This document shows, piece by piece, positions 47,982-61,354 of a stretch of 64,000 nt of DNA. Each line of letters starts with the position of its first letter. The stretch's first letter is position 1. A program made the position numbers and the translations under genes. Origin of the DNA: Woeseiaceae bacterium (GTDB taxonomy: Bacteria > Pseudomonadota > Gammaproteobacteria > Steroidobacterales > Woeseiaceae); the NCBI GenBank assembly GCA_024640315.1, contig JAHEFF010000003.1, positions 1 through 64,000 on the forward strand, given 5' to 3'. Below the pieces are notes generated by a model. That model ran no database searches, was not told where the DNA came from, and saw only the letters and a program-made list of their open reading frames with translations.

Positions 47982-49013
47982 TCATCCGTCTTCCAGCCCG
48001 CCCAGGAAGTTGACGGTGTTTTGCCCGATCCAGTCAACGGAGTAGCCGCCTTCCAGCACCACCAGCGTCGGTAACTTCAGCGATGCAATGGCGGCTCCCA
48101 TCCGTGTGAAGTCGTCCGTTGTAATTTCGAAGAATGTTGTCGGATCCCCGGCAAAAGTGTCCAGTCCCAAGGCGACAACCAGTACGTCCGGAGAAAAACG
48201 GCGCACCTGGTCCAGCGCATCGGACAATGCCACGCTATAGGAATCCCACGCCGTGCCAAATGGCAGCGGGTAGTTAACGTTAAAGCCGGCGCCATCTCCC
48301 TCGCCAGGTTCGTCGGCATAACCAAGAAAGAAGGGATACTCGACCTTCGGGTCTGCGTGCAACGAGATAGTCAACACGTCGTTCCGGTTGTAAAAGATAC
48401 TCTGCGTGCCATTGCCATGATGGTAGTCGACGTCGAGTATTGCGACCCGTGAAGCGCCATCATCCAGAAACGACTGTGCAGCAAGCGAATTGTTGTTGAG
48501 ATAACAGTACCCGCCACAGTAACTGACCGTGGCATGGTGCCCTGGCGGCCGGCAAGCAGAGAACGCCAGCCTCGCGCCACCCTTTATGATTTCTGCTCCG
48601 GTCAACGCAACATTTGCAGACGTTCGAATCGCCTGCCAACTGCCTGCAACGAATGGCGAAGTCGCGTCAAATGAATAACGACCCAACCTGCCCACAACGC
48701 ACTCCGTCTCTGCGTGTCGCATACCGGCGCCGACGAATGTATCGGGCCGCGCGTTGGCCCCTTTCTCACCCGATGCCAGCCATTCATTCCAGACAGACTC
48801 CAGGAACTGCAGGTAGTCCAACGAGTGAATTCTCAGAATCCTCTGATCGTCAAATACGTCCGGCCCAATGATTTCGCCGAATTGATTTTCCCGGATTGCA
48901 GTCTCGACATTGTTAGCGCGTGCCGGACACTCGGCGCTGGGACCCCAGTTGTCACCACGTGGATCGAGCAAGCCATCATGTAAATTGTGATCGTCAGAAT
49001 ATACGGTTTTCAC
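47982..49013 (-). CDS. Histone-deacetylase-family amidohydrolase (acetylpolyamine amidohydrolase type)
   Basis: A 343-residue zinc deacetylase. It has the tandem histidines in CRPPGHHATVSYCGGYCYLN near residue 150, zinc ligands in ILDVDYHHGNGTQSIFY near 188 and GLDTFAGDP near 276, and EGGYSVDW near 318. Length and start (MKTVYSDDHNLHDG) fit bacterial acetylpolyamine amidohydrolases, which free polyamines from N-acetyl forms. The start is GTG at 49013, overlapping an upstream small ORF in GTGA. Location near a Pot-type transporter and amine-processing enzymes supports a polyamine substrate. Confidence 0.87.
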   Translation of the reverse strand: MKTVYSDDHNLHDGLLDPRGDNWGPSAECPARANNVETAIRENQFGEIIGPDVFDDQRILRIHSLDYLQFLESVWNEWLASGEKGANARPDTFVGAGMRHAETECVVGRLGRYSFDATSPFVAGSWQAIRTSANVALTGAEIIKGGARLAFSACRPPGHHATVSYCGGYCYLNNNSLAAQSFLDDGASRVAILDVDYHHGNGTQSIFYNRNDVLTISLHADPKVEYPFFLGYADEPGEGDGAGFNVNYPLPFGTAWDSYSVALSDALDQVRRFSPDVLVVALGLDTFAGDPTTFFEITTDDFTRMGAAIASLKLPTLVVLEGGYSVDWIGQNTVNFLGGLEDG

Positions 49014-49171
49014 TGGACTTCCCCTGCCCCCTGGATATTCGCAACCAGCTTGCCGTTGACAACCAGGAGCCGAATATCGTCGTCTTCGGCAGCGTCACCA
49101 GGTGCAACGCAAATCGCATCCAGCATTGCACCATTGACCGCGATGGTGCGCGAACGAAACCATGAAACCAT
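49010..49171 (-). CDS. Small 53-residue ORF coupled to the deacetylase gene
   Basis: In the 200 bp between the GcvT-like and deacetylase genes, the minus strand has an ATG at 49171 and a 53-codon frame ending in TGA at 49010, overlapping the deacetylase GTG in GTGA. The translation (RSRTIAVNGAMLDAICVAPG, then DIRLLVVNGKLVAN) resembles the last strand region of amidohydrolases. No ribosome-binding site is visible. It may be a small coupled ORF or the tail of a deleted amidohydrolase gene. Confidence 0.3.
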   Translation of the reverse strand: MVSWFRSRTIAVNGAMLDAICVAPGDAAEDDDIRLLVVNGKLVANIQGAGEVQ

Positions 49172-49214
49172 GGGTCGAGCCGCTGCTTCATGGTCCGTGC
49201 CAGCGCTTCAGCAT

Positions 49215-50408
49215 TTAGTACGGGCCTGGCGGGGTGGCGCGCTTCCTTGGCGGATCCCAGAACGGTTTATCAACAACGGTTGCTTCGGCCATTACTCGCG
49301 ACCAATGCATTTCACGCTGGTAGTAAATCTCGACATACAGTTTGTCGCCCACCTTTCCGTGCGGCGCCTGTACGGTACCAAGGGCGATATTCTGTTTGCA
49401 TACCGGTGACCACATTGCCGACGTAACGAAGCCGATATTCTTGCCCCCCTTCTTCCCGGCGTAGATGTAGGAGTTATGCGCCTCCTTGTTTCCCTCAATA
49501 TCGAGTTTGACGAGACGCCAGGCCGAACCGTTGCGTTTCTCCTCCGCCAGCGCTCGCCGGCCATTGAAGTTCGGTTTTTTAAAATCAACCAGCCATTCGA
49601 GTCCCAGCTCCAGGGGAGATCGGGAACGACCCGTTCTGACGGTGACGTCAGCCGGAAGGAAATCGATATACGCTGCAATGAATCCCGCTTCGACCCTTGC
49701 GTGCTCGAGCGCCTCGGTTCCCATTGCCATGATTCCGTAAAGCTTGCCAGCGTCGAACAAGGCATCCCAAAGTTCTATTGCCTTGTCGGGGGTCAGCCAG
49801 AGCTCATATCCAAGGTCGCCCGTAAACCCGGTCCTGGACACCATCAATTCAGTACCCTGGAAATCAAACGTGGTCAGACCGAAAGGGCGCAGGTTTTCGA
49901 TGCCATCCAGCCCCATCGCCTGCAATACGCTGAATGAGGTTGGACCCTGAACTGCGAGGCCGCAAACGTCTTCAGTTTCGTCGACGATCGACACCTCCAT
50001 GCCTATCGCAGCAGCGGTCAGCCATGCCATGTGGCGTTCTTGCGAACAAAGCCTGTACTCACCCTGCCGCAGATGAAAGATCGTGCCATCATCGATGACC
50101 TGACCCTCGTCATCGCACCAAACGGCGTACGCGACACGGCCGGGTTTGATCTTGCTCATGTCGCGTGTAACCAGCCTGTTCAGGTAGTCGAGGGCATCCG
50201 GGCCGGTGATCCGGTACTTCGTCATCGGCGTCAGATCAAAAACACCGGTGCTGTTGCGAACCGAGAAATACTCAAGCGTCGTATCGTAAAATCCGTCGGC
50301 GCTGGCATAGCCCTTCCATTCATGCCAGCGAAACAGGCGGTCGAGTTCCGCTTGCCGTGGAAAGAATGGCGATCGCAATCTTCCCTGTTCCACTTCAGCA
50401 ATAGTCAT
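49215..50408 (-). CDS. GcvT-like folate-dependent aminomethyl/demethylase protein
   Basis: A 397-residue protein of the GcvT/DmdA family, which transfers one-carbon units from amines or other methyl donors to tetrahydrofolate. It has GVFDLTPMTKYRITGPDALDYLNRLV-type N-terminal features (VFDLTPMTKYRITGPDA near residue 55), VSRTGFTGDLGYELW near 195 and AMGTEALEHARVEAGFIA near 230. No glycine-cleavage H or P genes are nearby, so a stand-alone demethylase is more likely than a glycine cleavage T-protein. It overlaps the upstream flavoprotein gene in ATGA. The substrate is unknown. Confidence 0.82.
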   Translation of the reverse strand: MTIAEVEQGRLRSPFFPRQAELDRLFRWHEWKGYASADGFYDTTLEYFSVRNSTGVFDLTPMTKYRITGPDALDYLNRLVTRDMSKIKPGRVAYAVWCDDEGQVIDDGTIFHLRQGEYRLCSQERHMAWLTAAAIGMEVSIVDETEDVCGLAVQGPTSFSVLQAMGLDGIENLRPFGLTTFDFQGTELMVSRTGFTGDLGYELWLTPDKAIELWDALFDAGKLYGIMAMGTEALEHARVEAGFIAAYIDFLPADVTVRTGRSRSPLELGLEWLVDFKKPNFNGRRALAEEKRNGSAWRLVKLDIEGNKEAHNSYIYAGKKGGKNIGFVTSAMWSPVCKQNIALGTVQAPHGKVGDKLYVEIYYQREMHWSRVMAEATVVDKPFWDPPRKRATPPGPY

Positions 50409-51952
50409 ACCACTTTCTCCGATTTCAGAATGGCGCGCGCAGCGTTTCGGCCTGCTGCACCGCTCACGCCACCACCCGGATGGGTGCCGGCGCCGCAAAG
50501 GTAAAGTCCGTCGAGCGGCATCGCGTACTGGTGGGCTCCGCCGACCGGTCGCGTGAAGAGGAACTGATCCAGTACCAGCTCACCGTGATGCCAGTGACCA
50601 CCCGATATATGAAACTGCTGCTCGATGTCCGCCGGCGTCAGCAACTCTGAAGCAGTGATCCGCTGTGGCAGATCCGGCATGTACTCAGAGAGCGTATCGA
50701 TCGCCAGTTTCGTGAATGCGTCCCGCGCACCATCGGACCAGCCCTCACGTAATTCATAAGGAACGTACTGAACGATGGCCGACATCACATGCTTGCCCGT
50801 CGGCGCGAGGCTGTCGTCGCGGAAACTCGGAAACGTGATTTCAAAGACGGGCTTCGCCGAGGTCTCGCCATACTTGGCGTGATTGAACGCACGCTCGACA
50901 TATACCTCGTCAGGCGCAATGACGAACCGGTCAGCAAACTCACGTTTCTCAACGCCGGCAATGCTCGGCAGGCCGTCCAGTGCCAGATGAAGTTTTGCGG
51001 CGTCGCCACGCATCCGGATGTGATGCACGCGACGTGTAAAGCCTGTCTCTACGTTCCGCGCACCGACCAGATTCATGATGGTGGATTTCGGGTCCGCGTT
51101 CGACACAACCAGGCGACTTGAAAACGTTTCGCCCGATTCAGTCTCCACGCCGGCTGCACGCCCGTTTTGAACGACGATTCGTTTTACTTTCATGCCGGTG
51201 CGGATTGTGACGCCATTTTCTCGCGCAGAATGAGCCAGTGCTTCCGTAACCGAGCCCATACCGCCCGCAGGTTGGCTGAGCCTGGCGTGCGAACCTGCCA
51301 GACGGTACAGATAGGTCATGATGGTGTTTGGTGATCTGGGGCCCAGGTGCGTTCCCAGCACTGCGTCAAAACTGACCGCACCACGCAACAGGTCGCTCTC
51401 GAAGCGTTCCGTGACTTCATCACGAATATTCATGCCGATCAGTCGCAAAAACTCCTGCATCTCCTTCCTGCCCAGACGGCGAATATCAAAACCGAGTTGC
51501 GCGAGCGTCAACATGTCGGACTTGCTGGCGTCTTTTGCCAACCGCGGCGCGGTTTTGTTCAGGTAGGTTTTCAGCAGGTCAGCGAATCGTGTCATCCGCT
51601 TGCGGAAATCACGATAACTGGCGACATCCTCATCACCGACACCGGAGACATCGTTGCCGTTGATACGCACGTGCTTACCGTCTGCAGACAGAGCAACGGT
51701 ACCGAGCTTGTCCCTGGCCAGCTCGACCTTCAGCCCAAGATCCTTCGTGACCTGGGATTGCAGCTGGTACAAAAGATGCGCACAGGAGGAGACTGAGTAA
51801 CCGTCGGCAAATTCTCGCGTGACCGCGGCACCGCCAACCCGGTCGTTCGCCTCGAGGACCAGCACCTTCCTGCCGGCCTTGCCGAGCAAAGATGCACACA
51901 CCAGGCCATTGTGACCCGCGCCTACTACGATAGTGTCGTAACGTTCACTCAT
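50405..51952 (-). CDS. FAD-dependent oxidoreductase, PYROXD2/phytoene-desaturase-like (second of pair)
   Basis: A 515-residue flavoprotein. The N-terminal dinucleotide fold (YDTIVVGAGHNGLVCASLLG, then VLVLEANDRVGGAAVT) binds FAD, and the C-terminal motif LYLCGAGTHPGGGVSGAAGR completes the FAD site. The family includes phytoene desaturase-like and amine-oxidase-like enzymes. It is a paralogue of the gene directly upstream, whose stop overlaps its start in ATGA. With the neighbouring aminotransferase and GcvT-like protein I infer oxidation of an amine or its product; carotenoid genes are absent. Confidence 0.85.
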   Translation of the reverse strand: MSERYDTIVVGAGHNGLVCASLLGKAGRKVLVLEANDRVGGAAVTREFADGYSVSSCAHLLYQLQSQVTKDLGLKVELARDKLGTVALSADGKHVRINGNDVSGVGDEDVASYRDFRKRMTRFADLLKTYLNKTAPRLAKDASKSDMLTLAQLGFDIRRLGRKEMQEFLRLIGMNIRDEVTERFESDLLRGAVSFDAVLGTHLGPRSPNTIMTYLYRLAGSHARLSQPAGGMGSVTEALAHSARENGVTIRTGMKVKRIVVQNGRAAGVETESGETFSSRLVVSNADPKSTIMNLVGARNVETGFTRRVHHIRMRGDAAKLHLALDGLPSIAGVEKREFADRFVIAPDEVYVERAFNHAKYGETSAKPVFEITFPSFRDDSLAPTGKHVMSAIVQYVPYELREGWSDGARDAFTKLAIDTLSEYMPDLPQRITASELLTPADIEQQFHISGGHWHHGELVLDQFLFTRPVGGAHQYAMPLDGLYLCGAGTHPGGGVSGAAGRNAARAILKSEKVV

Positions 51953-53568
51953 CAGTCGTCACCGAAATTGGCCGGCGTAATTGCCGGACGCTTGAGATCC
52001 GATAGGATTTCCCGAGCCGCATTACAACCTGGTGCAGCCATGATGCCGCCGCCTGGATGGTTGCTCGACCCACACATATAGAGTCCACCGACGGGCCCGC
52101 GGTACTGCGCGTATCCCGGAATGGGGCGATTGAACATCAACTGATCCATTGTCAGTTCGCCATGGAAAATATTCCCCTCCGTGATACCGATTTCATCTTC
52201 GATGACACTCGGCGTGCGAATTTCTACGTGCTCGATCAGGTCTTTGAAATCCGGGCTGTAATCGGCGACCTGATCAAGAACGGTCTGCCCGAATTGTTGC
52301 CGTTCGTCCTCGGTCCACTCACGGCCCTCGATTTGTGCCGGACAATACTGAACAAAACAGCTCATGAAATGCTTGCCCGGCGGCGCCATGGTTGGGTCAG
52401 AAACGGTCGGGATGGTCATATCGATGTAAGGATCTTTCGACCAGGTACCATCCTTCCAGTCATCGTAGGCACGCTCCATGCGCTCCATCGAATCGATAAA
52501 GTGCATGTCGCCATCGAGCAGCGGGCTGCCCTTCGGCAACGCCGGGAACGTCGGCATTCCGCCGAGTGCGATATTGACTTTGCCCGATGATCCGCGAATT
52601 TTGAAATTCTTCACACGATGGTAAAAATCCTCATCAAGATCGTTCTTATCCATGCACCTGAGGAAGGTGTTCTTGACGTCCATCGCGGACACCACGATCT
52701 TCGCACTGATCTCCTCGCCAGTCGACAAAGCGACACCGGTCACCTTGCCATTCCTGACCAGGATCTGCTCAACGCCGGCATCCGTTCTGAGCTCGCCACC
52801 CAGTGATTTGAATGAGCTGCAGATGGCATCCGCCACCGCGCCCGTTCCACCGCGTGCATAACCCCAGGCACCCATGTTGCCGTCAACGTCGCCCATATAG
52901 TGATGCAACAGCACATAGGCCGTACCGGGCGAATGTATCCCGAGTGCCGTGCCGATAATGCCACTGCCTGACAGCGCCGCTTTGATGACGTCGGTTTCGA
53001 AATATTCATCCAGGTATTCGGCAACGCTCATCGTCCAGAAGCGAATCGTGTCGTACATGCGCTGCTCGCCCATCTCGAAGAACTTGGCACCCAGATAAGC
53101 CAGTTCCTTCAGATCTTTTGGCTTGAACGAAGCAGGATCAGGCGGTGTGCGCATCAGAAATTCACGAATGAAGCGGCACTGACGCATCGTATCCGCCGAA
53201 TATCGTTCATACGCATCGGCGTCTGCTTTCGAAAAACGTGCATATTCACGGTAGTGCACTTCGTGATCCGGATAACTGCCAAGGTAGTCTCCGTTTTCCA
53301 TGAAGACAGATCCACCGCCATACGGGGTAACCTGCAGACCATGTCGTGCGAGGTCGAGGTCACGGTAGATTTCCGGCCGGAGCAGACTGCAAACGTATGA
53401 GCAGTTCGAGTACTTCCAGTCCTTGTACAAATTACGGCTGACAGTTGCACCGCCGATGTATTCGTTTTTCTCAACACAAAGCGTATTGAGTCCGGACTTG
53501 GCGAGGTAAGCCGCGTTGGTCAGACCATTATGGCCGGCACCAACGACGATCGCGTCGTAGGTTTTCAT
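51952..53568 (-). CDS. FAD-dependent oxidoreductase, PYROXD2/phytoene-desaturase-like (first of pair)
   Basis: A 538-residue flavoprotein with TYDAIVVGAGHNGLTNAAYL at the N-terminus, ADAICSSFKSLGGELRTDAG near residue 245, and C-terminal LYMCGSSNHPGGGIMAAPG. It shares the fold and many positions with the next gene, so the pair arose by duplication or forms a heteromer. It starts 9 bp after the aminotransferase stop. No signal peptide is present, so it is cytoplasmic. The specific reaction is unknown. Confidence 0.85.
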   Translation of the reverse strand: MKTYDAIVVGAGHNGLTNAAYLAKSGLNTLCVEKNEYIGGATVSRNLYKDWKYSNCSYVCSLLRPEIYRDLDLARHGLQVTPYGGGSVFMENGDYLGSYPDHEVHYREYARFSKADADAYERYSADTMRQCRFIREFLMRTPPDPASFKPKDLKELAYLGAKFFEMGEQRMYDTIRFWTMSVAEYLDEYFETDVIKAALSGSGIIGTALGIHSPGTAYVLLHHYMGDVDGNMGAWGYARGGTGAVADAICSSFKSLGGELRTDAGVEQILVRNGKVTGVALSTGEEISAKIVVSAMDVKNTFLRCMDKNDLDEDFYHRVKNFKIRGSSGKVNIALGGMPTFPALPKGSPLLDGDMHFIDSMERMERAYDDWKDGTWSKDPYIDMTIPTVSDPTMAPPGKHFMSCFVQYCPAQIEGREWTEDERQQFGQTVLDQVADYSPDFKDLIEHVEIRTPSVIEDEIGITEGNIFHGELTMDQLMFNRPIPGYAQYRGPVGGLYMCGSSNHPGGGIMAAPGCNAAREILSDLKRPAITPANFGDD

Positions 53569-53577
53569 TGATTGAAC

Positions 53578-54933
53578 TCACCCATTTTTTCGGCGTTTTT
53601 GTGCCGTATTTATCGTGCTTTTATCGGCTTGTGAATTTTCTATTGTAATGTCCACCGCCGTCTCAAATTTGTCCAGCGTTTCCGCCAGACATTCCACATC
53701 ATGAGCCTCACACATAAACCAGGGTTCACGCGAGTCGGGCTCGACGAGAATACCAAGCTCATGCAATTCGAGCGCCAATGCATCGTAGAACGCGTAGTCG
53801 GTATTAATCCAGTCGCGGTAATTCTTCGGTGGATCATCGCTGAAAAACAAGCCCGTCATTGACGGATGGCCAACAAACGAATGTGCGATTCCACGCGCTG
53901 ACAGGATCTTGCTCAGGCCATGCTGAAGATCGGTGCCGTATTTTTCGATAGAGGCGAGCGCATCCGTCTCTTCCAGGATTTCAAGCGTCTTGTTCGCAGC
54001 TGCGAGTGACACAGAATGACCGGTAAAAGTGCCACCATGTACAACGCCATCCCCGACGTTCCGCATGATGTCCTCGCGACCGGCAACGACGGATATCGGG
54101 TACCCGTTAGCCAGTGCCTTGGCGAACGTACAAAGATCGGCTTTGACACCCAGCAACTCCTGCGCCCCGCCTTTCGCCACTCTGAAACCAGTTTTGACCT
54201 CATCGATGATCATGACAACATCGTATCGGTCACACAGAGACCTGACATCCCTGAGAAATTCGCTGCTGGCCGTCAGGCTACAGCAGTTGCCCATTATTGC
54301 TTCGATCAGAAAAGCGCCAATATCCTGATGGTGCTCCTTCAAAATGTCTTCAACGGCATTCGCGTCGTTTAGCGGCACGCTATGAAACAGCGGCCTGATA
54401 ATCTGCGGAACGCCATTGCCATAGGGCATGACTTCCGGAGCACCGTCTTCAGGCACCCATTCCTCGACTTCCGAATACCACATGACTTCGCTGAACACGC
54501 CGTGGTAGCCGCCCTCCAGAATGATATGCCCGTCTTTGCCAGTGTGCGCTCGCGCAATCCGGAGCGCTGCCATCACCGCTTCCGTACCTGAGTTTGAAAA
54601 TCTGACCAACTCGGCTGCCGGCACCATACGGCTGATCCTGGACGCCACCTCGTACTCGAGCTCAGTGCCGAGCGCGAAGACACCGCCGACATGCATGCCT
54701 TCACGAGCCGCCTGATCGACGCGCTCGTCCGCGTAGCCGAGGATCGCCGGACCGTAGCCAAGCCGGTAGTCTATGTACTCGTTGTCGTCTATGTCCCACA
54801 GTCGCGCGCCTTTGCCACGACGGACGTAGAGGGTCTTGTCTTCCCCCCAATAACGGAAATTGGACGATACGCCCAGCGGTAACTTGCTGAGCGCTTTTTT
54901 GAAATGCTGATTGGACTTTTCCAGGGACCGCAT
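53578..54933 (-). CDS. Class III PLP aminotransferase (GSA-aminomutase-like)
   Basis: A 451-residue fold-type I, class III aminotransferase. It resembles glutamate-1-semialdehyde aminomutases: PLGVSSNFRYWGEDKTLYVR near residue 20, SNSGTEAVMAALRIARA near 113, MIIDEVKTGFRVAKGG near 240 and the PLP lysine in LCTFAKALANGYPISVVAG near 270. hemL function is unlikely given the catabolic neighbours; transamination of an omega-amino compound is more plausible. GGAGG lies 4 bases before the ATG. It is the first gene of the minus-strand operon, opposite a TetR gene. Confidence 0.88.
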   Translation of the reverse strand: MRSLEKSNQHFKKALSKLPLGVSSNFRYWGEDKTLYVRRGKGARLWDIDDNEYIDYRLGYGPAILGYADERVDQAAREGMHVGGVFALGTELEYEVASRISRMVPAAELVRFSNSGTEAVMAALRIARAHTGKDGHIILEGGYHGVFSEVMWYSEVEEWVPEDGAPEVMPYGNGVPQIIRPLFHSVPLNDANAVEDILKEHHQDIGAFLIEAIMGNCCSLTASSEFLRDVRSLCDRYDVVMIIDEVKTGFRVAKGGAQELLGVKADLCTFAKALANGYPISVVAGREDIMRNVGDGVVHGGTFTGHSVSLAAANKTLEILEETDALASIEKYGTDLQHGLSKILSARGIAHSFVGHPSMTGLFFSDDPPKNYRDWINTDYAFYDALALELHELGILVEPDSREPWFMCEAHDVECLAETLDKFETAVDITIENSQADKSTINTAQKRRKNG

Positions 54934-54998
54934 CAGGCCTCCACACAGTAATACGCCAGCTCAGGGTCTCATGCCGGAGGGGCGAATGTCCAGAAAAC

Positions 54999-55016
54999 TG
55001 AATGAATACTCATTCA
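54999..55016. promoter_or_regulatory. Palindromic operator candidate for the TetR/BetI-type regulator
   Basis: TGAATGA (54999-55005) and TCATTCA (55010-55016) form a perfect 7 bp inverted repeat around a 4 bp spacer, a typical TetR-family operator shape. It lies between the divergent aminotransferase operon and the tetR gene, 66 bp from the first and 86 bp from the second, so one repressor could control both. A weaker AATGCT/AGCATT repeat is at 55072-55085. Confidence 0.6.
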
Positions 55017-55101
55017 TTTTATGGCATTATCCTCAATATAAACAATAATTTATAGCGATGATAATTTAGCAAATGCTTGAGCATTCAAAGAGTTGCAGAC
55101 C

Positions 55102-55731
55102 ATGATGGTAGAGGCGGAGAAGCCGGGCCGCAGAGCACTGGCCAAGCAACGCCGGCGCCAACAGCTGATCGACGCCACCATCAAGTGCATTTCAAAAAAG
55201 GGGCTCGGCAGTACCACCCTCGGCGACGTGGCTGGTGAAGCCGGTTTGTCGCAGGGCATCGTCAATCTGCATTTCAACAGCAAGGACAACCTGCTGGCAG
55301 AGACGCTTCGATATCTTGCAGAGGAATACGATGAACAATTCATGCAAACCCTCGAAAAGTCACCGCCCAACCCTGCCGCCCGGCTCAGCGCGCTGATGGA
55401 GATGGCTCTCAAACCCGCGGTATGCGAGCCGAGAAAACTTGCGGTCTGGTTTGCCTTCTGGGGCGAGGTCAAGACGGTGCCCACCTACCGAAAGATATGT
55501 GCCGACCGGGAGCAAAAATACGACGATATTATTCGCGGGCTGGTGCAGGACATCATTCGTGAGGGAGGCTACGACGGACGTGACGCAAAGACCGTAGCTG
55601 ATGCACTGTCATCAATAACCGACGGCATGTGGCTGTCATGCCTCATTAATCCAAAAACATTTGACCGGACCACTGCCTGGAACGCCGTAAGAAGCTACCT
55701 CAGTGCGATGTTTCCGGATCATTACCTATAG
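55102..55731 (+). CDS. TetR-family regulator, BetI-like
   Basis: A 209-residue TetR regulator. The N-terminal helix-turn-helix (TLGDVAGEAGLSQGIVNLHF near residue 40) is of the BetI type, and the C-terminal part (AVWFAFWGEVKTVPTYRKIC near 116) also resembles the BetI ligand-binding domain. BetI controls choline/betaine genes in response to choline. Here the targets should be the divergent amine operon and possibly the pot genes. ATG at 55102 (or 55105) is preferred over the upstream TTG at 55093. Confidence 0.88.
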   Translation: MMVEAEKPGRRALAKQRRRQQLIDATIKCISKKGLGSTTLGDVAGEAGLSQGIVNLHFNSKDNLLAETLRYLAEEYDEQFMQTLEKSPPNPAARLSALMEMALKPAVCEPRKLAVWFAFWGEVKTVPTYRKICADREQKYDDIIRGLVQDIIREGGYDGRDAKTVADALSSITDGMWLSCLINPKTFDRTTAWNAVRSYLSAMFPDHYL

Positions 55732-55760
55732 CGGGAGCGATACCCTGGATATCCAACCAG

Positions 55761-56120
55761 GTGAAAGCGAGAACCTACGCCGACGAGTATCTGCAACCGC
55801 ACGAAGTGGAAGCCGAACTAAACGGTGGTTGCCTGCCGGACAAGCTTGCCTAGCGCAACAAGATACGGGCAAACGAACCTGGATTCAGTGCAATAGACGC
55901 GCTTAAGTCGTGCGGCGGACTCGAACTGCCGATGATCGAGCAGGTTGCAACCCGGGAACAGCTTGGCCGTGTGACCAACGCCCTCTCCTGGTGTTTTTCC
56001 GAACCGCAGAAATGGATGTTCGAGGCATGCAGCGAAGAACAGATCCGGGAGGGGACAAGTGAGATTCAGCGTCTCATTATTGCCCGTAAGCTGTTGAAGC
56101 GCGGTCTTGACGACATCTGA
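55761..56120 (+). pseudogene. Acyl-CoA dehydrogenase relic
   Basis: One frame reads KARTYADEYLQPHEVEAELN ... LPDKLA, an in-frame TAG (55851-55853), then ANEPGFSAIDALKSCGGLEL and IEQVATREQLGRVTNALSW, then jumps directly to EGTSEIQRLIIARKLLKRG and a stop. The first parts match the N-terminal domain of acyl-CoA dehydrogenases and the last matches their C-terminal end, but roughly 250 central residues are missing. So the gene has lost its middle and gained a nonsense codon while the flanking frame survived. It sits between tetR and the transporter genes. Confidence 0.8.
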
Positions 56121-56148
56121 TACGGCTCAAACGTAGTATCCTTTGCGG

Positions 56149-57264
56149 ATGCCCGTATGCCAGCGCCTATTCATTGTGATGTCAGGACTTCTGTCCCTGG
56201 CGGGATGCACGACCGACAAGACGGCCGACACAGCAAGCTCTGAAAAAATCGTCAACGTATACAACTGGGCGGACTACATCGCTCCGGACACACTCGATAA
56301 ATTCGAAGCCGAATACGGCATCAAGGTTAACTACGACATTTACGACGGCTCGCAAGTCGTGGACGTCAAATTGCTCGCCGGCAACTCCGGCTATGACGTT
56401 GTCGTTCACTCAAGCCAGTATTCCTCCCGGCTAACGCCGATTGGCGTGTACGAGAAACTCGACTACAGCCGTCTGGACAACCGCCACCACATGGACCTGG
56501 AACTGCGCCGTAAAACCGATGTTTATGAGAAAACCCGTGGCTACGCGATCCCCTATCACTGGGGAACGACAGGCTATGCCTGGAACGAGAAGCTGGTTCG
56601 CGAAAGATTACCGAATCATCCTATGGATTCGGCAGACGTCCTGTTTGACCCCGAAGTGGCATCCAGGCTTGCTGACTGTGGCATCAGCCTGCTGGACGGC
56701 CCGACCGACATTTATCCGATGGTGCTTGCCTATCTTGGCCGCAATCCGAATGCAGTCGATGACGAAAGCCTGGCCGCTGCCGAAGCGCAGTTGATGAAGG
56801 TCCGCCCCTACATTCGCTACTTTAGCAATCAGAAAATGCAGATAGACCTGCCAACGCAGGAGGTTTGTGTTGCCATGAGCTGGTCGGGGGACTACGCCAC
56901 GGCGGAGCGGCGAGCCCGGGAAGCAGGCGTCGATATAAAACTGAACTACACGATGCCCAAGGAAGGTTCGGGCCTTTGGGTTGACGGCGTCTATATGCCT
57001 GCCGACGCACCGCATAAAGACAACGCCTACCTGTTTATGAACTTCCTGATGCGGCCCGACATCGCGGCAGACATTGCCAATGAAGTCTGGTACGCAAACG
57101 TTAACAAAGCTTCCTGGGAGCTGACCAATCCCAAAATCATGAATAATCCAGCCATCTACCCGCCGGAAAGCGAGTGGCATGTGCTCTACCCGGTCCTGGC
57201 TGTCGATCCGAAGCGAGAGCGATTCAGAACCCGTTCTTTTGCCCGCGTAAAATCGGGCATCTAG
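56149..57264 (+). CDS. potF: Putrescine/polyamine-type ABC substrate-binding lipoprotein
   Basis: A 371-residue periplasmic binding protein with a lipobox (LLSLAGC, Cys near residue 20), so it is a lipid-anchored receptor. The fold matches PotF: NVYNWADYIAPDTLDKFEAE near 37, GYDVVVHSSQYSSRL near 80, GYAIPYHWGTTGYAWNEKLV near 125 and MSWSGDYATAERRAREAGVD near 243. PotF/PotD proteins bind putrescine or spermidine; related ones bind other amines, and the ligand residues cannot be judged here. It heads a SBP-ATPase-permease-permease operon, the potFGHI order. ATG at 56149 is preferred to TTG at 56143. Confidence 0.88.
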   Translation: MPVCQRLFIVMSGLLSLAGCTTDKTADTASSEKIVNVYNWADYIAPDTLDKFEAEYGIKVNYDIYDGSQVVDVKLLAGNSGYDVVVHSSQYSSRLTPIGVYEKLDYSRLDNRHHMDLELRRKTDVYEKTRGYAIPYHWGTTGYAWNEKLVRERLPNHPMDSADVLFDPEVASRLADCGISLLDGPTDIYPMVLAYLGRNPNAVDDESLAAAEAQLMKVRPYIRYFSNQKMQIDLPTQEVCVAMSWSGDYATAERRAREAGVDIKLNYTMPKEGSGLWVDGVYMPADAPHKDNAYLFMNFLMRPDIAADIANEVWYANVNKASWELTNPKIMNNPAIYPPESEWHVLYPVLAVDPKRERFRTRSFARVKSGI

Positions 57265-57290
57265 ATCAGTCCAGACCTGACAATGAATAT

Positions 57291-58400
57291 ATGACAGCAC
57301 GATCGAGTAACAGCGCCTTCATTGAAGTTCGAAAGTTGAGCAAACATTTCGGCGACTTCGTCGCTGTGGATGCCGTCAGCCTCAAAATCGAGCGTGGTGA
57401 GCTATTCTCGATTCTTGGCGGCTCCGGATGCGGCAAGACAACGCTGCTGCGTATGCTGGCCGGTTTCGAGACGCCCACTTCCGGCCAGGTCTTTCTCGAT
57501 GGCGTCGACATCACGAACCAACCGCCCTATGAACGCCCTGTCAACATGATGTTTCAGTCCTATGCGGTTTTTCCGCATATGACAGTTGAGCAGAATGTCG
57601 CCTACGGACTGAAGAAAGAGCGCCTGCCAAAAGAAGAGACGGCTTCTCGCGTACGTGAAATGCTATCGCTCGTCAAACTCGATGACTTTGGAGCCAGAAA
57701 ACCAAATCAGTTGTCCGGAGGGCAGCGCCAGCGTGTTGCCTTGGCCCGCGCTTTGGTTAAAAAGCCAAAGGTGCTTTTACTTGACGAGCCGCTCGCGGCA
57801 CTCGACAAGAAGCTCCGTGAGCATACCCAGTTCGAGTTAATGAATATTCAGGATGAGCTCGGAATTACCTTTGTCGTGGTTACCCACGATCAGGAAGAGG
57901 CGATGATCCTTTCGAACCGGATCGCTGTTATGGAGAAAGGACGGTTCGAGCAAATTGGCACACCGAAAGAAGTCTATGAATTTCCCCGCAATCGATTTGT
58001 TGCCGACTTCATCGGCACGATCAACACCTTCGATGGTGTGGTGCAAAACTCCGGCGACGGCATCGTCACCGTGGCGTCGGACGAATGCGGGCAATCCCTG
58101 CGGGCCTTGTGCGACAAACCACCTAAGAACGGCAGCGACGTCTGCATTGCGGTGCGGCCCGAAAAAATCTTTATCAGTCAGTACAAACCCGACAACCATG
58201 AGGACGCCTGTCTTGAAGGGGTGGTCGAGGATTTGGGTTATTTTGGCAACCTGTCGTTGTACCGGATCCGCCTTGCGACCGGGAAAGTCGTTCAGGTCAG
58301 CTCCCAGAACCGGCGGCGCTCGATCGAGCGGTCCTTCGATTGGGATGACAACGTCTACATTTCCTGGCGGCCGCGAAGCGCGCTCGTACTGGAGCCATGA
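57291..58400 (+). CDS. potG: Polyamine ABC transporter ATP-binding protein
   Basis: A 369-residue ATPase with Walker A GGSGCGKTT near residue 42, signature LSGGQRQRVALARALV near 139, Walker B LLLDEPLAALDKKLRE near 162 and a C-terminal TOBE domain (about 290-365), as in PotA/PotG. The ATG at 57291 follows the receptor gene by 26 bp; the frame upstream of it lies inside that gene. The stop overlaps the first permease gene in ATGA. Confidence 0.92.
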   Translation: MTARSSNSAFIEVRKLSKHFGDFVAVDAVSLKIERGELFSILGGSGCGKTTLLRMLAGFETPTSGQVFLDGVDITNQPPYERPVNMMFQSYAVFPHMTVEQNVAYGLKKERLPKEETASRVREMLSLVKLDDFGARKPNQLSGGQRQRVALARALVKKPKVLLLDEPLAALDKKLREHTQFELMNIQDELGITFVVVTHDQEEAMILSNRIAVMEKGRFEQIGTPKEVYEFPRNRFVADFIGTINTFDGVVQNSGDGIVTVASDECGQSLRALCDKPPKNGSDVCIAVRPEKIFISQYKPDNHEDACLEGVVEDLGYFGNLSLYRIRLATGKVVQVSSQNRRRSIERSFDWDDNVYISWRPRSALVLEP

Positions 58401-59293
58401 GCAGACAAACCGGTCACAGTGATACGACGTGGCAGCGCATAGCTATCGCGTTGCCCTATCTCTGGCTGCTCATATTCTTCCTGGCGCCGTTCGCGATCAT
58501 CCTGAAGATCAGCTTCGCCGACCCGGTTATCGCCATGCCTCCGTTCACGCCGACATTCGGTGACGATGGCGCTCTGCAAATCACGCTGGACAACTACGCA
58601 TTTCTGTTCACGGACAAGTTGTATGCGGTGACCTACCTGAAATCCGTGCTCATGGCAGCGTCGGCCACCGCACTTTGCCTGCTACTCGGGTTCCCTATTG
58701 CCTATGGCATTGCCCGTGCAGAACCGGAAACGCGAAACATCCTGCTACTGCTCATCGTCCTGCCATTCTGGATTTCGTTCCTGCTGCGCGTATACGCCTG
58801 GATGGGCCTTCTGAACAACTACGGCGTCATCAATAACCTGCTGATGTGGGCCGGGGTCACGGATCAGCCACTGGCAATGATGTACACCGATTTCGCGATC
58901 TACATCGGTCTCGTTTATTCCTATCTGCCTTTTATGATTCTGCCGCTCTACGCCACGCTCGAACGCATGGACCTGGATCTCGTCGAGGCTGCTCAGGATC
59001 TGGGCGCCACCTCAACCGTAGCATTCTGGAATATCACCTGGCCGCTCGCCCGGCCAGGCGTCATTGCGGGTTGCCTGCTCGTGTTCATTCCAGCAACCGG
59101 TGAATACGTCATACCCTACTTACTCGGTGGCCCGGAGTCGCTACTGATCGGTCGTGTACTGTTTGATGAGTTCTTCACCAACAGGGACTGGCCGCTTGCG
59201 TCGGCTGTGGCAATCGTCCTCATCTTCCTGGTGGTCATTCCAATTGTGCTTCTGCAACGCAACCAGGCAAGAGCGACGGAGAATGCGGCGTGA
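58397..59293 (+). CDS. potH: Polyamine ABC transporter permease (PotH/PotB type)
   Basis: A 298-residue permease with six transmembrane helices (starting near residues 18, 80, 110, 165, 215 and 265). The EAA motif that contacts the ATPase is LVEAAQDLGATSTVAFWNIT near residue 197. Start and stop overlap the neighbouring genes by 4 bp, so the three subunits are coupled. Confidence 0.92.
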   Translation: MSRQTGHSDTTWQRIAIALPYLWLLIFFLAPFAIILKISFADPVIAMPPFTPTFGDDGALQITLDNYAFLFTDKLYAVTYLKSVLMAASATALCLLLGFPIAYGIARAEPETRNILLLLIVLPFWISFLLRVYAWMGLLNNYGVINNLLMWAGVTDQPLAMMYTDFAIYIGLVYSYLPFMILPLYATLERMDLDLVEAAQDLGATSTVAFWNITWPLARPGVIAGCLLVFIPATGEYVIPYLLGGPESLLIGRVLFDEFFTNRDWPLASAVAIVLIFLVVIPIVLLQRNQARATENAA

Positions 59294-60090
59294 AGGGAAA
59301 CTCCCGTTTTGTCATTTCTGTACTCGCGTTCGGCTACGCGTTTCTCTATCTGCCGCTGCTTTCCGTCATTGTCTACTCATTTAACGACTCGCAACTGGCA
59401 ACCGTGTGGGGCGGATTTTCGATGCGCTGGTACGGGGAGCTATTCAAGAACAGCCAGATCATCGACGCGCTGATGCTGAGCCTCAAGGTCGCAGTGAGCG
59501 CGGCGACGATGGCGACATTGTTCGGCACGATGGCTGGTGTTGCGTTATCGAGATTCGGTCGATTCCGGGGCAGAAACCTGTTCACCGGCATGATTACGTC
59601 ACCGATGGTGATGCCGGAAGTCATCACCGGTCTTTCATTGCTCTTGCTGTTCGTCAGCTTGCAGCAACTGACCGGCTGGCCGTCGCAAAGAGGCTACGGC
59701 ACCATCACAATAGCCCATACTACTTTTGCAATGGCCTATGTTGCTGTCATCGTGCAATCGCGCCTTGCTGCAATGGATGAATCACTCGAAGAAGCCGCAA
59801 TGGATCTCGGCGGTCGCCCTTTTCGCGTAATGATTGATATCACACTGCCGCTGATCGCACCGGCTATGCTTGCCGGCTGGCTACTGGCGTTTACTCTTTC
59901 CCTGGACGACCTGGTCATCGCCAGTTTCGTCTCCGGTCCGGGCGGCAGTACTTTGCCGATGCTGATATTTTCGAAAGTGAAGCTGGGTGTAACGCCTGAT
60001 ATCAATGCGCTGGCGACGCTGATCATGCTTTTCGTTTCGGCAGGTGTCGTTCTCGCGTGGGCCATTGGCCGTCGCATGCAAAAAGCCTGA
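59290..60090 (+). CDS. potI: Polyamine ABC transporter permease (PotI/PotC type)
   Basis: A 266-residue permease with six transmembrane helices. The EAA motif is LEEAAMDLGGRPFRVMIDIT near residue 165, and SFNDSQLATVWGGFSMRWY near 30 is typical of the PotC/PotI group. The start is GTG in a GTGA overlap with the preceding gene. It ends the transporter operon; the Rieske gene converges 43 bp away. Confidence 0.92.
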   Translation: MKGNSRFVISVLAFGYAFLYLPLLSVIVYSFNDSQLATVWGGFSMRWYGELFKNSQIIDALMLSLKVAVSAATMATLFGTMAGVALSRFGRFRGRNLFTGMITSPMVMPEVITGLSLLLLFVSLQQLTGWPSQRGYGTITIAHTTFAMAYVAVIVQSRLAAMDESLEEAAMDLGGRPFRVMIDITLPLIAPAMLAGWLLAFTLSLDDLVIASFVSGPGGSTLPMLIFSKVKLGVTPDINALATLIMLFVSAGVVLAWAIGRRMQKA

Positions 60091-60133
60091 AAGGAGACTC
60101 TAACGCCGCACCGCGCAGGCTGAGGCGCTTCAG

Positions 60134-61354
60134 CTAGCTGATGACACTTGGGGCTCGCCTGAGTTCGTGCAGGACCCACTCGATCCAGTGCCGTTCTGTT
60201 AACTCCATGGCAGAAAACGGTCCAGGCCGATAGAAGCGCGATTTCACGCCCGTCCAGTTATTGACGATAATCTTTTCGTCTGCATAGGTCGTAACGTCCC
60301 ACAACCACATCAGCTCCTCGCGATTGTAATCTTTGCCTTCCTCGGCATCGCCCCGCACCAACCAGTAAATCTGACACTGGCAATGAGTTTGATCTACCGG
60401 TGTAAACACATAGCCGACGACATGATCGCTATAGGCGAGAAGAAAAGAGAAAGGTCCGAAAGCGAGATCGGAGGCCCCGCCGTCGTAGTCCTTGAGGTCA
60501 CCTAACAGTGGCGCAATCGGTTCACCATCACCGCTGCCCGTCTTGTAGCCCTCGAACATCGCAGTACGACTGTAGTGGTACCCCTGCTCGCCCGGCGGTG
60601 ATTCCGTGGCGAAAAAATTGTATTCAATTTCCTTCATACCGCAGGCTTCCATCTTCTCTAACATGTGCTCCTGGACTCGCTCCCTTTTCTTTTCATCGAG
60701 CATGAGCGTGTGCATTTTCGCGTACTCGGGATGCGCCGGCGCGCAGTGATAACACTCCACGTAGTTCTCGATAGATAATTTCCAGTTTGCGGCAATCGGG
60801 TAGGTCTTGGTTGCGGCAACCTTGAGGTCATCGAAACCGAACATGGCCATCGGTTCAGCCAGGTCACGCTTTGCCGCTTCGAATGACGGGGCGTCAGTGC
60901 AGAAACAGATAAACACGAGGCCGTGCACGATGTCGACAGAGACCCTGTTCAGGCTGTGGTCTTCCCGCCTGAAACCCTCCGGCATAGCCCGGGCGCCGAC
61001 CAGTTCGCCTTCCGTGTCGTAGACCCAGCCGTGGTAGGGACAGGTAAACTTTCGTGTATTGCCTGATTCTTCCAGGCATACCAGGGACCCGCGATGACGG
61101 CAGACATTGGCAAACGCCCTGATTTCACCGTCCTGACCGCGAACGATGATGGCGGATTCATTTGCGACGTTGAATACCTTGAAGTCCCCCGGCTGCGCCA
61201 GCTCAGATTGATGGCCCGCCAAAATCCAGTTACGCATGACAATATTGTCCAGCTCCAGCTGGTAGATTTCGGGGTCCGTATAAAACCGCTGTTCAAGCGA
61301 CCAGCCAGGCTTCTGGCAGGCAATCAGTTCGCGGATGGGTCTGTCGTCGTGCAT
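60134..61354 (-). CDS. Rieske non-heme iron oxygenase, alpha subunit
   Basis: A 406-residue terminal oxygenase. The Rieske [2Fe-2S] site is CRH near residue 85 and CPYHGW near 105 (C-x-H-17-C-x2-H). The mononuclear iron site is in NYVECYHCAPAHPEY near 200 (two histidines), with the carboxylate in the C-terminal WLWDVTTYADEKIIV region. It resembles oxygenases that demethylate quaternary ammonium compounds, such as glycine betaine monooxygenase GbcA. No ferredoxin reductase partner is in the window. Its place at the end of the amine locus suggests oxidative N-dealkylation of the imported compound. Confidence 0.87.
   Translation of the reverse strand: MHDDRPIRELIACQKPGWSLEQRFYTDPEIYQLELDNIVMRNWILAGHQSELAQPGDFKVFNVANESAIIVRGQDGEIRAFANVCRHRGSLVCLEESGNTRKFTCPYHGWVYDTEGELVGARAMPEGFRREDHSLNRVSVDIVHGLVFICFCTDAPSFEAAKRDLAEPMAMFGFDDLKVAATKTYPIAANWKLSIENYVECYHCAPAHPEYAKMHTLMLDEKKRERVQEHMLEKMEACGMKEIEYNFFATESPPGEQGYHYSRTAMFEGYKTGSGDGEPIAPLLGDLKDYDGGASDLAFGPFSFLLAYSDHVVGYVFTPVDQTHCQCQIYWLVRGDAEEGKDYNREELMWLWDVTTYADEKIIVNNWTGVKSRFYRPGPFSAMELTERHWIEWVLHELRRAPSVIS

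Follow-up and report, generated by a model that had tools for sequence, protein, structure and literature searches.

Which compound is handled by a group of genes that sets a Rieske oxygenase, two flavoproteins, a stand-alone GcvT-like folate-domain protein, a class III aminotransferase and a PotFGHI-type importer around a single TetR/BetI-type regulator? The group lies in a stretch of 64,000 nucleotides from a Woeseiaceae bacterium (assembly GCA_024640315.1, contig JAHEFF010000003.1, positions 1 to 64,000; hereafter the window), which is part of contig C66 of a 3.55 Mb genome (G000) in 101 contigs; the closest named relatives, judged by the first flavoprotein (FP1), are Woeseiaceae metagenome-assembled genomes. 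The original prediction described eleven intact genes that import and dismantle an acetylated or N-methylated amine. From sequence comparison, we favor, with moderate confidence, a role in the catabolism of a primary amine that is methylated on its other nitrogen, i.e. a compound of the N-methylated diamine or polyamine type.

Conservation of the cluster and its operator

The aminotransferase of the cluster (AT3) was detected at E ≤ 1e-100 in 58 of the 107 genomes of the family, the window's own included, and the neighborhoods of the 57 others were taken; recurrence of the AT3 neighborhood in these same-family genomes is beyond chance. Among the 25 AT3-centered family loci that are well covered (at least 8 kb on each side, presence being called at ≥45% identity), FP1, the second flavoprotein (FP2) and the GcvT-like protein are present in all 25, the Rieske oxygenase in 23 and TetR in 19, along with an acyl-CoA dehydrogenase and a CoA ligase (24 each), PotF and PotG (17 each), PotH and PotI (16 each) and an aldehyde dehydrogenase (7). 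The expectation that homologous clusters would not split into unrelated parts was thus borne out by the co-occurrence of these genes. The best 80 of 408 FP1 relatives in named genomes were also surveyed; 17 of these loci were too short, and in 60 of the 63 testable ones FP1, FP2 and GcvT are contiguous in that order, the exceptions being L050 and L052, with a lone FP1, and L115, without GcvT. The two sets overlap, 28 of the 55 FP1-bearing family loci sharing FP1 DNA with a named locus.

The triad is reused in other contexts. Two further FP1-FP2-GcvT triads are encoded in the same genome on contig C40 (~59.2-72.2 kb; L010 7226-11582 and 15809-19999, L011 545-2158), with FP1 58% and 64% identical to that of the window; one lies by an aldehyde dehydrogenase and a cupin, the other by an AraC-type regulator and a MOSC protein, and in the 58% copy FP2 precedes FP1. 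A lone FP1 on contig C15 (11 kb; L009 2620-8349), 84% identical to the window FP1 and without FP2 or GcvT, is found near a class III aminotransferase, an MFS transporter and an APH-type kinase, and the lone FP1 genes of L050 and L052 lie near a gene labeled by eye as methylenetetrahydrofolate-reductase-like.

All eleven named open reading frames (ORFs) were recovered at their coordinates (Table 1), nine re-translated without an internal stop and PotH and PotI taken as listed open ORFs, and for ten of the eleven genes the proposed families agree with the Pfam/NCBIfam scans, PotI lying outside the scan. Of the 4-bp overlaps that had been reported, those between FP2 and GcvT (50405-50408), PotG and PotH (58397-58400) and PotH and PotI (59290-59293) hold, whereas FP1 and FP2 overlap by 1 bp; the deacetylase and GcvT genes, described as having coupled ends, are separated by 201 bp (49014-49214).

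Only one exact copy of the palindrome AATGAAT-N4-ATTCATT is present in the window, between the divergent AT3 and TetR genes; other matches carry 2-3 mismatches and are near chance in number, one of them overlapping the exact site. The idea of a shared palindromic operator stands insofar as the site is common to the divergent AT3 and TetR genes and conserved; it is, however, the sole exact copy in the window, and the palindrome search of the window found no exact copy before the Rieske gene. Of 56 relatives, 39 carry a perfect copy of the palindrome within 400 bp upstream of AT3 and 43 carry a copy with at most one mismatch, compared to 0 of 1120 single-base shuffles of these upstream regions. 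Across 137 loci (2.19 Mb, duplicates included) there are 80 exact copies, 62 of which separate an annotated TetR from AT3 or FP1; another 14 fall within the 5' ends of ORFs labeled as TetR or AT3 (these were called from the first possible codon), 3 beside AT3 without a labeled neighbor and one between a Rieske gene and FP1; none of the 80 is labeled as lying beside a Pot gene. When the 54 AT3 loci with sufficient room were compared for an adjacent TetR and an exact operator, the two agreed in 48 (42 with both, 6 with neither) and disagreed in 6, of which 4 have TetR and a palindrome with one mismatch. The four alphaproteobacterial clusters that were checked have no exact palindrome, the best matches carrying 3-6 mismatches. 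A conserved operator between divergent units argues for co-regulation of both strands, and TetR/BetI would repress both units through this one predicted site.

Putative demethylation enzymes, receptor and proposed pathway

The closest solved relatives of the Rieske protein are 3n0q, 3vca, 4qup and CntA; 3vca and 4qup (chain name 'Monoxygenase; demethylase') we take to be the stachydrine demethylase Stc2. The CxH/CxxH ligands of the Rieske cluster (C85, H87, C105 and H108) are retained in 63-64 of 64 aligned rows, the remainder being X, and E200, C201 and C204 by the mononuclear iron site are present in 64 of 64. In excerpts of PMC10952381, E205 is the bridging residue of CntA, and a cysteine pair (CxxC) occurs in some group V (quaternary-ammonium) Rieske enzymes. 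By these residues, the window protein carries the hallmarks of a quaternary-ammonium (group V) oxygenase, sharing the bridging Glu and the CxxC with Stc2 and CntA; it differs from these enzymes in having no adjoining reductase and does not reach the curated GbcA model (280.6 bits, below the cut-off of 670).

A conserved aspartate of GcvT proteins has a functional role, and in the GcvT-like protein the Asp pair D107-D108 is found in 101 of 102 rows. Its closest solved relative is the C-terminus of trimethylamine N-oxide (TMAO) demethylase, followed by GcvT, dimethylglycine oxidase and sarcosine oxidase, and it misses the curated T-protein cut-offs (175.5 and 219.2 vs. 235.85 and 300 bits). The motifs of the Rieske and GcvT-like proteins strengthen the N-demethylation part of the original prediction. 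FP1 and FP2 belong to the flavin amine oxidase/CrtI-CrtO superfamily according to Pfam, NCBIfam and fold, the best NCBIfam models being CrtI/CrtO; matches to DAO are weaker and partial, and no DAO-GcvT fusion is present, GcvT being a separate gene. The structure model of FP1 (predicted local distance difference test score, pLDDT, 79.3) has 4rep, 4dgk and NicA2 as its nearest folds, and that of FP2 (pLDDT 82.7) has 4rep, 3ka7, NicA2 and monoamine oxidase; putrescine oxidases are also among the fold matches of the two proteins. AT3 scores 453 bits on the GntE model (cut-off 525).

The receptor was compared with PotF in 49 distinct rows. W37, W244, D247, D278 and Trp276 of the amine site and aromatic box are present in 49 of 49, and D39 in 48 of 49. 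At the distal site and bridge, S87, A182, E184, E185 and L348 of PotF are replaced in the window protein by Q, G, T, D and V; across the rows, position 87 is Gln in 31 of 49, position 182 Gly in 33, position 184 Thr in 37 and position 185 Asp in 36. The roles of these pocket residues are those given in part of PMC8666671, where E185 is at least 96% conserved within the set of that paper. The receptor, which scores 334 of the 636 bits of the curated PotF cut-off, thus appears to keep the primary-amine end of the pocket and not its distal end.

The deacetylase is related to acetylpolyamine amidohydrolases (phmmer E 4e-111 to 9gkz, 8e-104 to 6phr). Where at least 5 kb of sequence follows GcvT, only 3 of the 16 named AT3 loci and 1 of 16 family loci contain it; among the four relatives of the window's genus with coverage, L047, L125 and L126 have it and L127 does not. 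These counts weaken the acetylated-amine part of the original prediction; acetylated-amine catabolism was abandoned as the core function and the deacetylase is regarded as accessory. In Parasedimentitalea, an HDAC-family gene lies ~10 kb from the triad.

From the gene content, its conservation, the motifs, the operator and a relic described below, all read from the sequence itself, we infer the substrate, the reactions, their order and the repression. The PotFGHI-type importer would take up the amine, and the Rieske oxygenase would strip the first methyl off the quaternary nitrogen, releasing it as formaldehyde. FP1 and FP2 would then oxidize the remaining tertiary and secondary N-methyls, with the common GcvT-like protein passing the carbon to tetrahydrofolate, and AT3 would transaminate the primary amine to an aldehyde, to be converted to an acid. 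In relatives, a CoA ligase would activate this acid and an acyl-CoA dehydrogenase desaturate it, an arm that has decayed in the present genome. A more speculative extension, on which we place little weight, is that the triad constitutes a new multi-protein folate-linked N-demethylase on the amine-oxidase/carotenoid-desaturase flavin fold, in which FP1 and FP2 share the stand-alone GcvT-like protein as their one folate subunit and are paired with a quaternary-ammonium Rieske enzyme, and that sediment and seawater bacteria use it on N-methylated diamines or polyamines, such as the methylated long-chain polyamines of diatom silica; the open-access searches made yielded no bacterial pathway for long-chain diatom polyamines.

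The combination of enzymes appears to be a new arrangement of a known kind of system. The betaine route through GbcA, DMGDH and sarcosine oxidase likewise combines a quaternary-ammonium Rieske enzyme, flavin enzymes and a GcvT folate domain, and the stepwise removal of N-methyls would be common to both; however, the window flavoproteins come from the amine oxidase/CrtI superfamily instead of DAO, and GcvT is encoded on its own. Compared to TMAO demethylase, the window has the GcvT part only, which would act with two flavoproteins. In agreement with the original prediction, no characterized pathway with this exact set was found in the open-access searches made.

Table 1 Features of the cluster, with positions in the window
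Feature	Coordinates	Strand	Evidence or remark
Deacetylase, histone-deacetylase fold, acetylpolyamine-amidohydrolase type	47982..49013	-	PF00850; accessory
Possible short enoyl-CoA hydratase relic (weak, uncertain)	49049..49141	-	best E 9e-4
GcvT-like stand-alone folate-domain protein, third member of the triad	49215..50408	-	PF01571/PF08669
FP2, flavin amine oxidase-fold flavoprotein	50405..51952	-	PF01593
FP1, flavin amine oxidase-fold flavoprotein	51952..53568	-	Pfam/NCBIfam, structure model
AT3, class III aminotransferase, GSA-aminotransferase/GntE group	53578..54933	-	PF00202
Predicted palindromic operator AATGAAT-N4-ATTCATT	55001..55018	.	single exact copy in window; conserved
TetR/BetI-type regulator	55102..55731	+	PF00440 and PF13977 (BetI-type C-terminus)
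Acyl-CoA dehydrogenase relic	55737..56117	+	TAG at 55851-55853, central ~250 codons lost
PotF-type solute-binding receptor	56143..57264	+	E 4e-91 to PotF; pocket comparison
PotG/PotA-type ATPase	57291..58400	+	potA subfamily model, over cut-off
PotH/PotB-type permease	58397..59293	+	NCBIfam
PotI/PotC-type permease	59290..60090	+	ORF; named by position and as query retrieving its relatives
Rieske oxygenase alpha subunit, quaternary-ammonium type, convergent to importer	60134..61354	-	PF00355/PF00848

The lost CoA arm and alternative substrates

The eleven genes fall short of the ancestral operon, and a CoA arm was missed in the original prediction: in relatives, an acyl-CoA dehydrogenase sits between TetR and PotF, where the window has a relic, and a CoA ligase follows GcvT. 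One part of the relic matches residues 9-109 (55737-56048, 79% to L044) with an in-frame TAG, and the other residues 354-386 (56019-56117, 67%), some 250 codons being gone. The loss looks recent because the codon-position bias over 97 compared codons still resembles that of intact genes, or the relic may be an assembly error. The syntenic CoA ligase is gone, the sole match in the genome being 29% identical and located elsewhere; a tblastn match to the ligase at 49165-49434 overlaps the GcvT gene and is not regarded as a ligase remnant. The possible hydratase relic is 35-47% identical over 30-31 residues to hydratases in the syntenic position, too short to be firm. The dehydrogenase and the ligase occur together in 31 of 32 well-covered family loci, and the remaining locus has neither; L127, which is not among the 32, keeps the dehydrogenase and has no ligase. 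The dehydrogenase of relatives scores best on acryloyl-CoA reductase, with crotonobetainyl-CoA dehydrogenase in the best four models; for the ligase, the best models are acetate, 4-hydroxybutyrate and 3-hydroxypropionate ligases. None of these scores reaches its cut-off, and together they suggest a short acid.

On the same contig, about 18-31 kb beyond the end of the window, lies another locus (C66 ~82-95 kb; ~80.5-95 kb as L217 1063-15462) that encodes a GbcA-like Rieske protein, two fused DAO-GcvT enzymes, BKACE, an acyl-CoA dehydrogenase, a CoA ligase, an MttB-family protein, a carnitine 3-dehydrogenase (dehydrogenase-thioesterase, 757.9 bits, cut-off 592) and a crotonobetainyl-CoA-hydratase-like protein (312 of 500 bits). 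One Rieske and two flavin-GcvT enzymes appear to follow the same arithmetic as the Rieske, FP1, FP2 and GcvT of the window. The genome seems to possess a classical, fused-enzyme route for carnitine/betaine, and therefore the window cluster probably handles another substrate with a split version of the same chemistry. A paralogous dehydrogenase-hydratase-ligase set of this locus (C66:90.9-94.9 kb) could replace the lost arm.

That second locus bears on the alternative whereby the substrate is a small carboxylated betaine (carnitine, γ-butyrobetaine or kin), on which the Rieske enzyme would act first and the triad next, the CoA ligase and dehydrogenase serving the chain. The BetI-type regulator, the presence of CntA among the solved Rieske relatives, the crotonobetainyl-CoA dehydrogenase and acryloyl-CoA reductase scores of the lost dehydrogenase and the relatives without an importer are all consistent with it, and the lost dehydrogenase and ligase have paralogs in the carnitine locus. 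We consider this alternative unlikely given the separate carnitine/betaine locus, the amine-binding residues retained in PotF and a class III aminotransferase that would have no obvious place in betaine breakdown. Carnitine dehydrogenase and BKACE are lacking from the window locus, and the paralogs are only 36% and 29% identical to the relatives of the lost genes. Homarine catabolism was considered as another possible function; the open-access searches turned up no paper on its genes, which speaks neither for nor against it.

In SAR92/OM182-type bacteria, the cluster has Puu-like genes. A PuuA-like ligase, a Rieske protein and a FAD oxidase follow the triad in all ten of L099, L100, L101, L102, L104, L109, L116, L117, L118 and L119, several of which are named SAR92, OM182 or Porticoccaceae, and seven of the ten have a glutamine amidotransferase. 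The best model of the ligase is γ-glutamylputrescine synthetase (218 of 650 bits), and some Woeseiaceae loci encode a PuuC-like dehydrogenase (549 of 850 bits). Among 40 loci, 14 have AT3 only, 9 the PuuA-like ligase only, 2 both and 15 neither, a pattern that is only suggestive of a swap of AT3 for Puu-like genes in SAR92-type bacteria because it follows lineage. Together with the Pot importer and the class III aminotransferase, these genes favor ordinary putrescine/spermidine catabolism, with FP1 and FP2 as plain amine oxidases and the Rieske and GcvT-like proteins in another role. We regard this as improbable: the Rieske enzyme (23/25) and GcvT (25/25), which are foreign to the Puu/Pot pathway, are as conserved as the rest and would be left without a substrate, and the distal half of the pocket is unlike that of putrescine-binding PotF. 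The importer is common to both systems, whereas PuuA, PuuB, PuuC and PuuD were not found among the ten scanned window genes.

It is very unlikely that the locus is decaying as a whole, with the remaining genes serving only detoxification or nitrogen scavenging: the dehydrogenase relic and the absent ligase point that way, but all eleven other genes have intact reading frames, FP1 shares 93% identity with its nearest relative, 87% of the differences lying at third positions, and the paralogous dehydrogenase-hydratase-ligase set is available elsewhere.

Several observations also weigh against the favored reading, catabolism of a primary amine with a methylated second nitrogen. PotF is lacking in 8 and TetR in 6 of the 25 well-covered family loci, and, among relatives of the same genus, the interval from the dehydrogenase to the Rieske gene contains importer genes in L124, L148 and L179 but none in L125, L126 and L127; the rhizobial and Parasedimentitalea marina clusters described below carry a receptor only ~22% identical to PotF and different aminotransferases. 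Importer, regulator and aminotransferase differ among lineages (the importer also among members of this genus), so that the substrate may differ from one carrier to another. The locus lacks a Rieske reductase; among 7 ferredoxin-domain matches in the genome, the one examined fits PaaE best. The fold assigns FP1 and FP2 only to a superfamily because the best match is the carotenoid desaturase 4rep and Rab GDI is also among the matches. Finally, loss of the CoA arm leaves the last part of the pathway in this genome unaccounted for. The original prediction is partly supported: joint inheritance of the genes and the N-demethylation reading gain support, the acetyl part is weakened, the importer is not constant and the CoA arm had been overlooked.

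Occurrence beyond the family and significance

At E 1e-150, FP1 was detected in 11 of the 397 genomes of the phylum, the window's own included, and FP1, FP2 and GcvT are all present in the 10 of 10 distant neighborhoods that were retrieved. Of 72,556 plasmid records, 20 have an FP1 match at E 1e-100; six plasmid regions were inspected, five from the FP1 matches and one from a Rieske search. On the plasmid of Fuscovulum ytuae, AT3, FP1, FP2, GcvT, two Rieske genes, the receptor, the ATPase and two permeases follow each other in this order on a single strand, with TetR divergent. In Parasedimentitalea marina, Shinella zoogloeoides and Rhizobium sp. SL42, TetR is divergent from FP1-FP2-GcvT, and importer genes, another class III aminotransferase and Rieske genes are close by. 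Leisingera caerulea (L208) has a related Rieske gene, and the triad was not found in the region inspected. On a plasmid of Shinella sumterensis (L209 5026-14164), GcvT and a distant FP1-like gene (37%) form a row with a hydratase, a CoA ligase and a hydroxyacyl-CoA dehydrogenase, with a BKACE-type gene nearby.

Marine sediments commonly harbor Woeseiaceae, and surface water SAR92/OM182-type bacteria. Conservation of the cluster in these two groups and in culturable Alphaproteobacteria, where the operator is different or unrecognized, points to an amine that is often met by marine bacteria. We know of no flavoprotein of the amine-oxidase/CrtI family that transfers methyl groups to folate, and the cluster points to folate-directed methyl transfer that would use this different flavoprotein family. 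The cluster is plasmid-borne in Fuscovulum ytuae, Shinella zoogloeoides and Parasedimentitalea marina, so that the question is testable in cultured strains.

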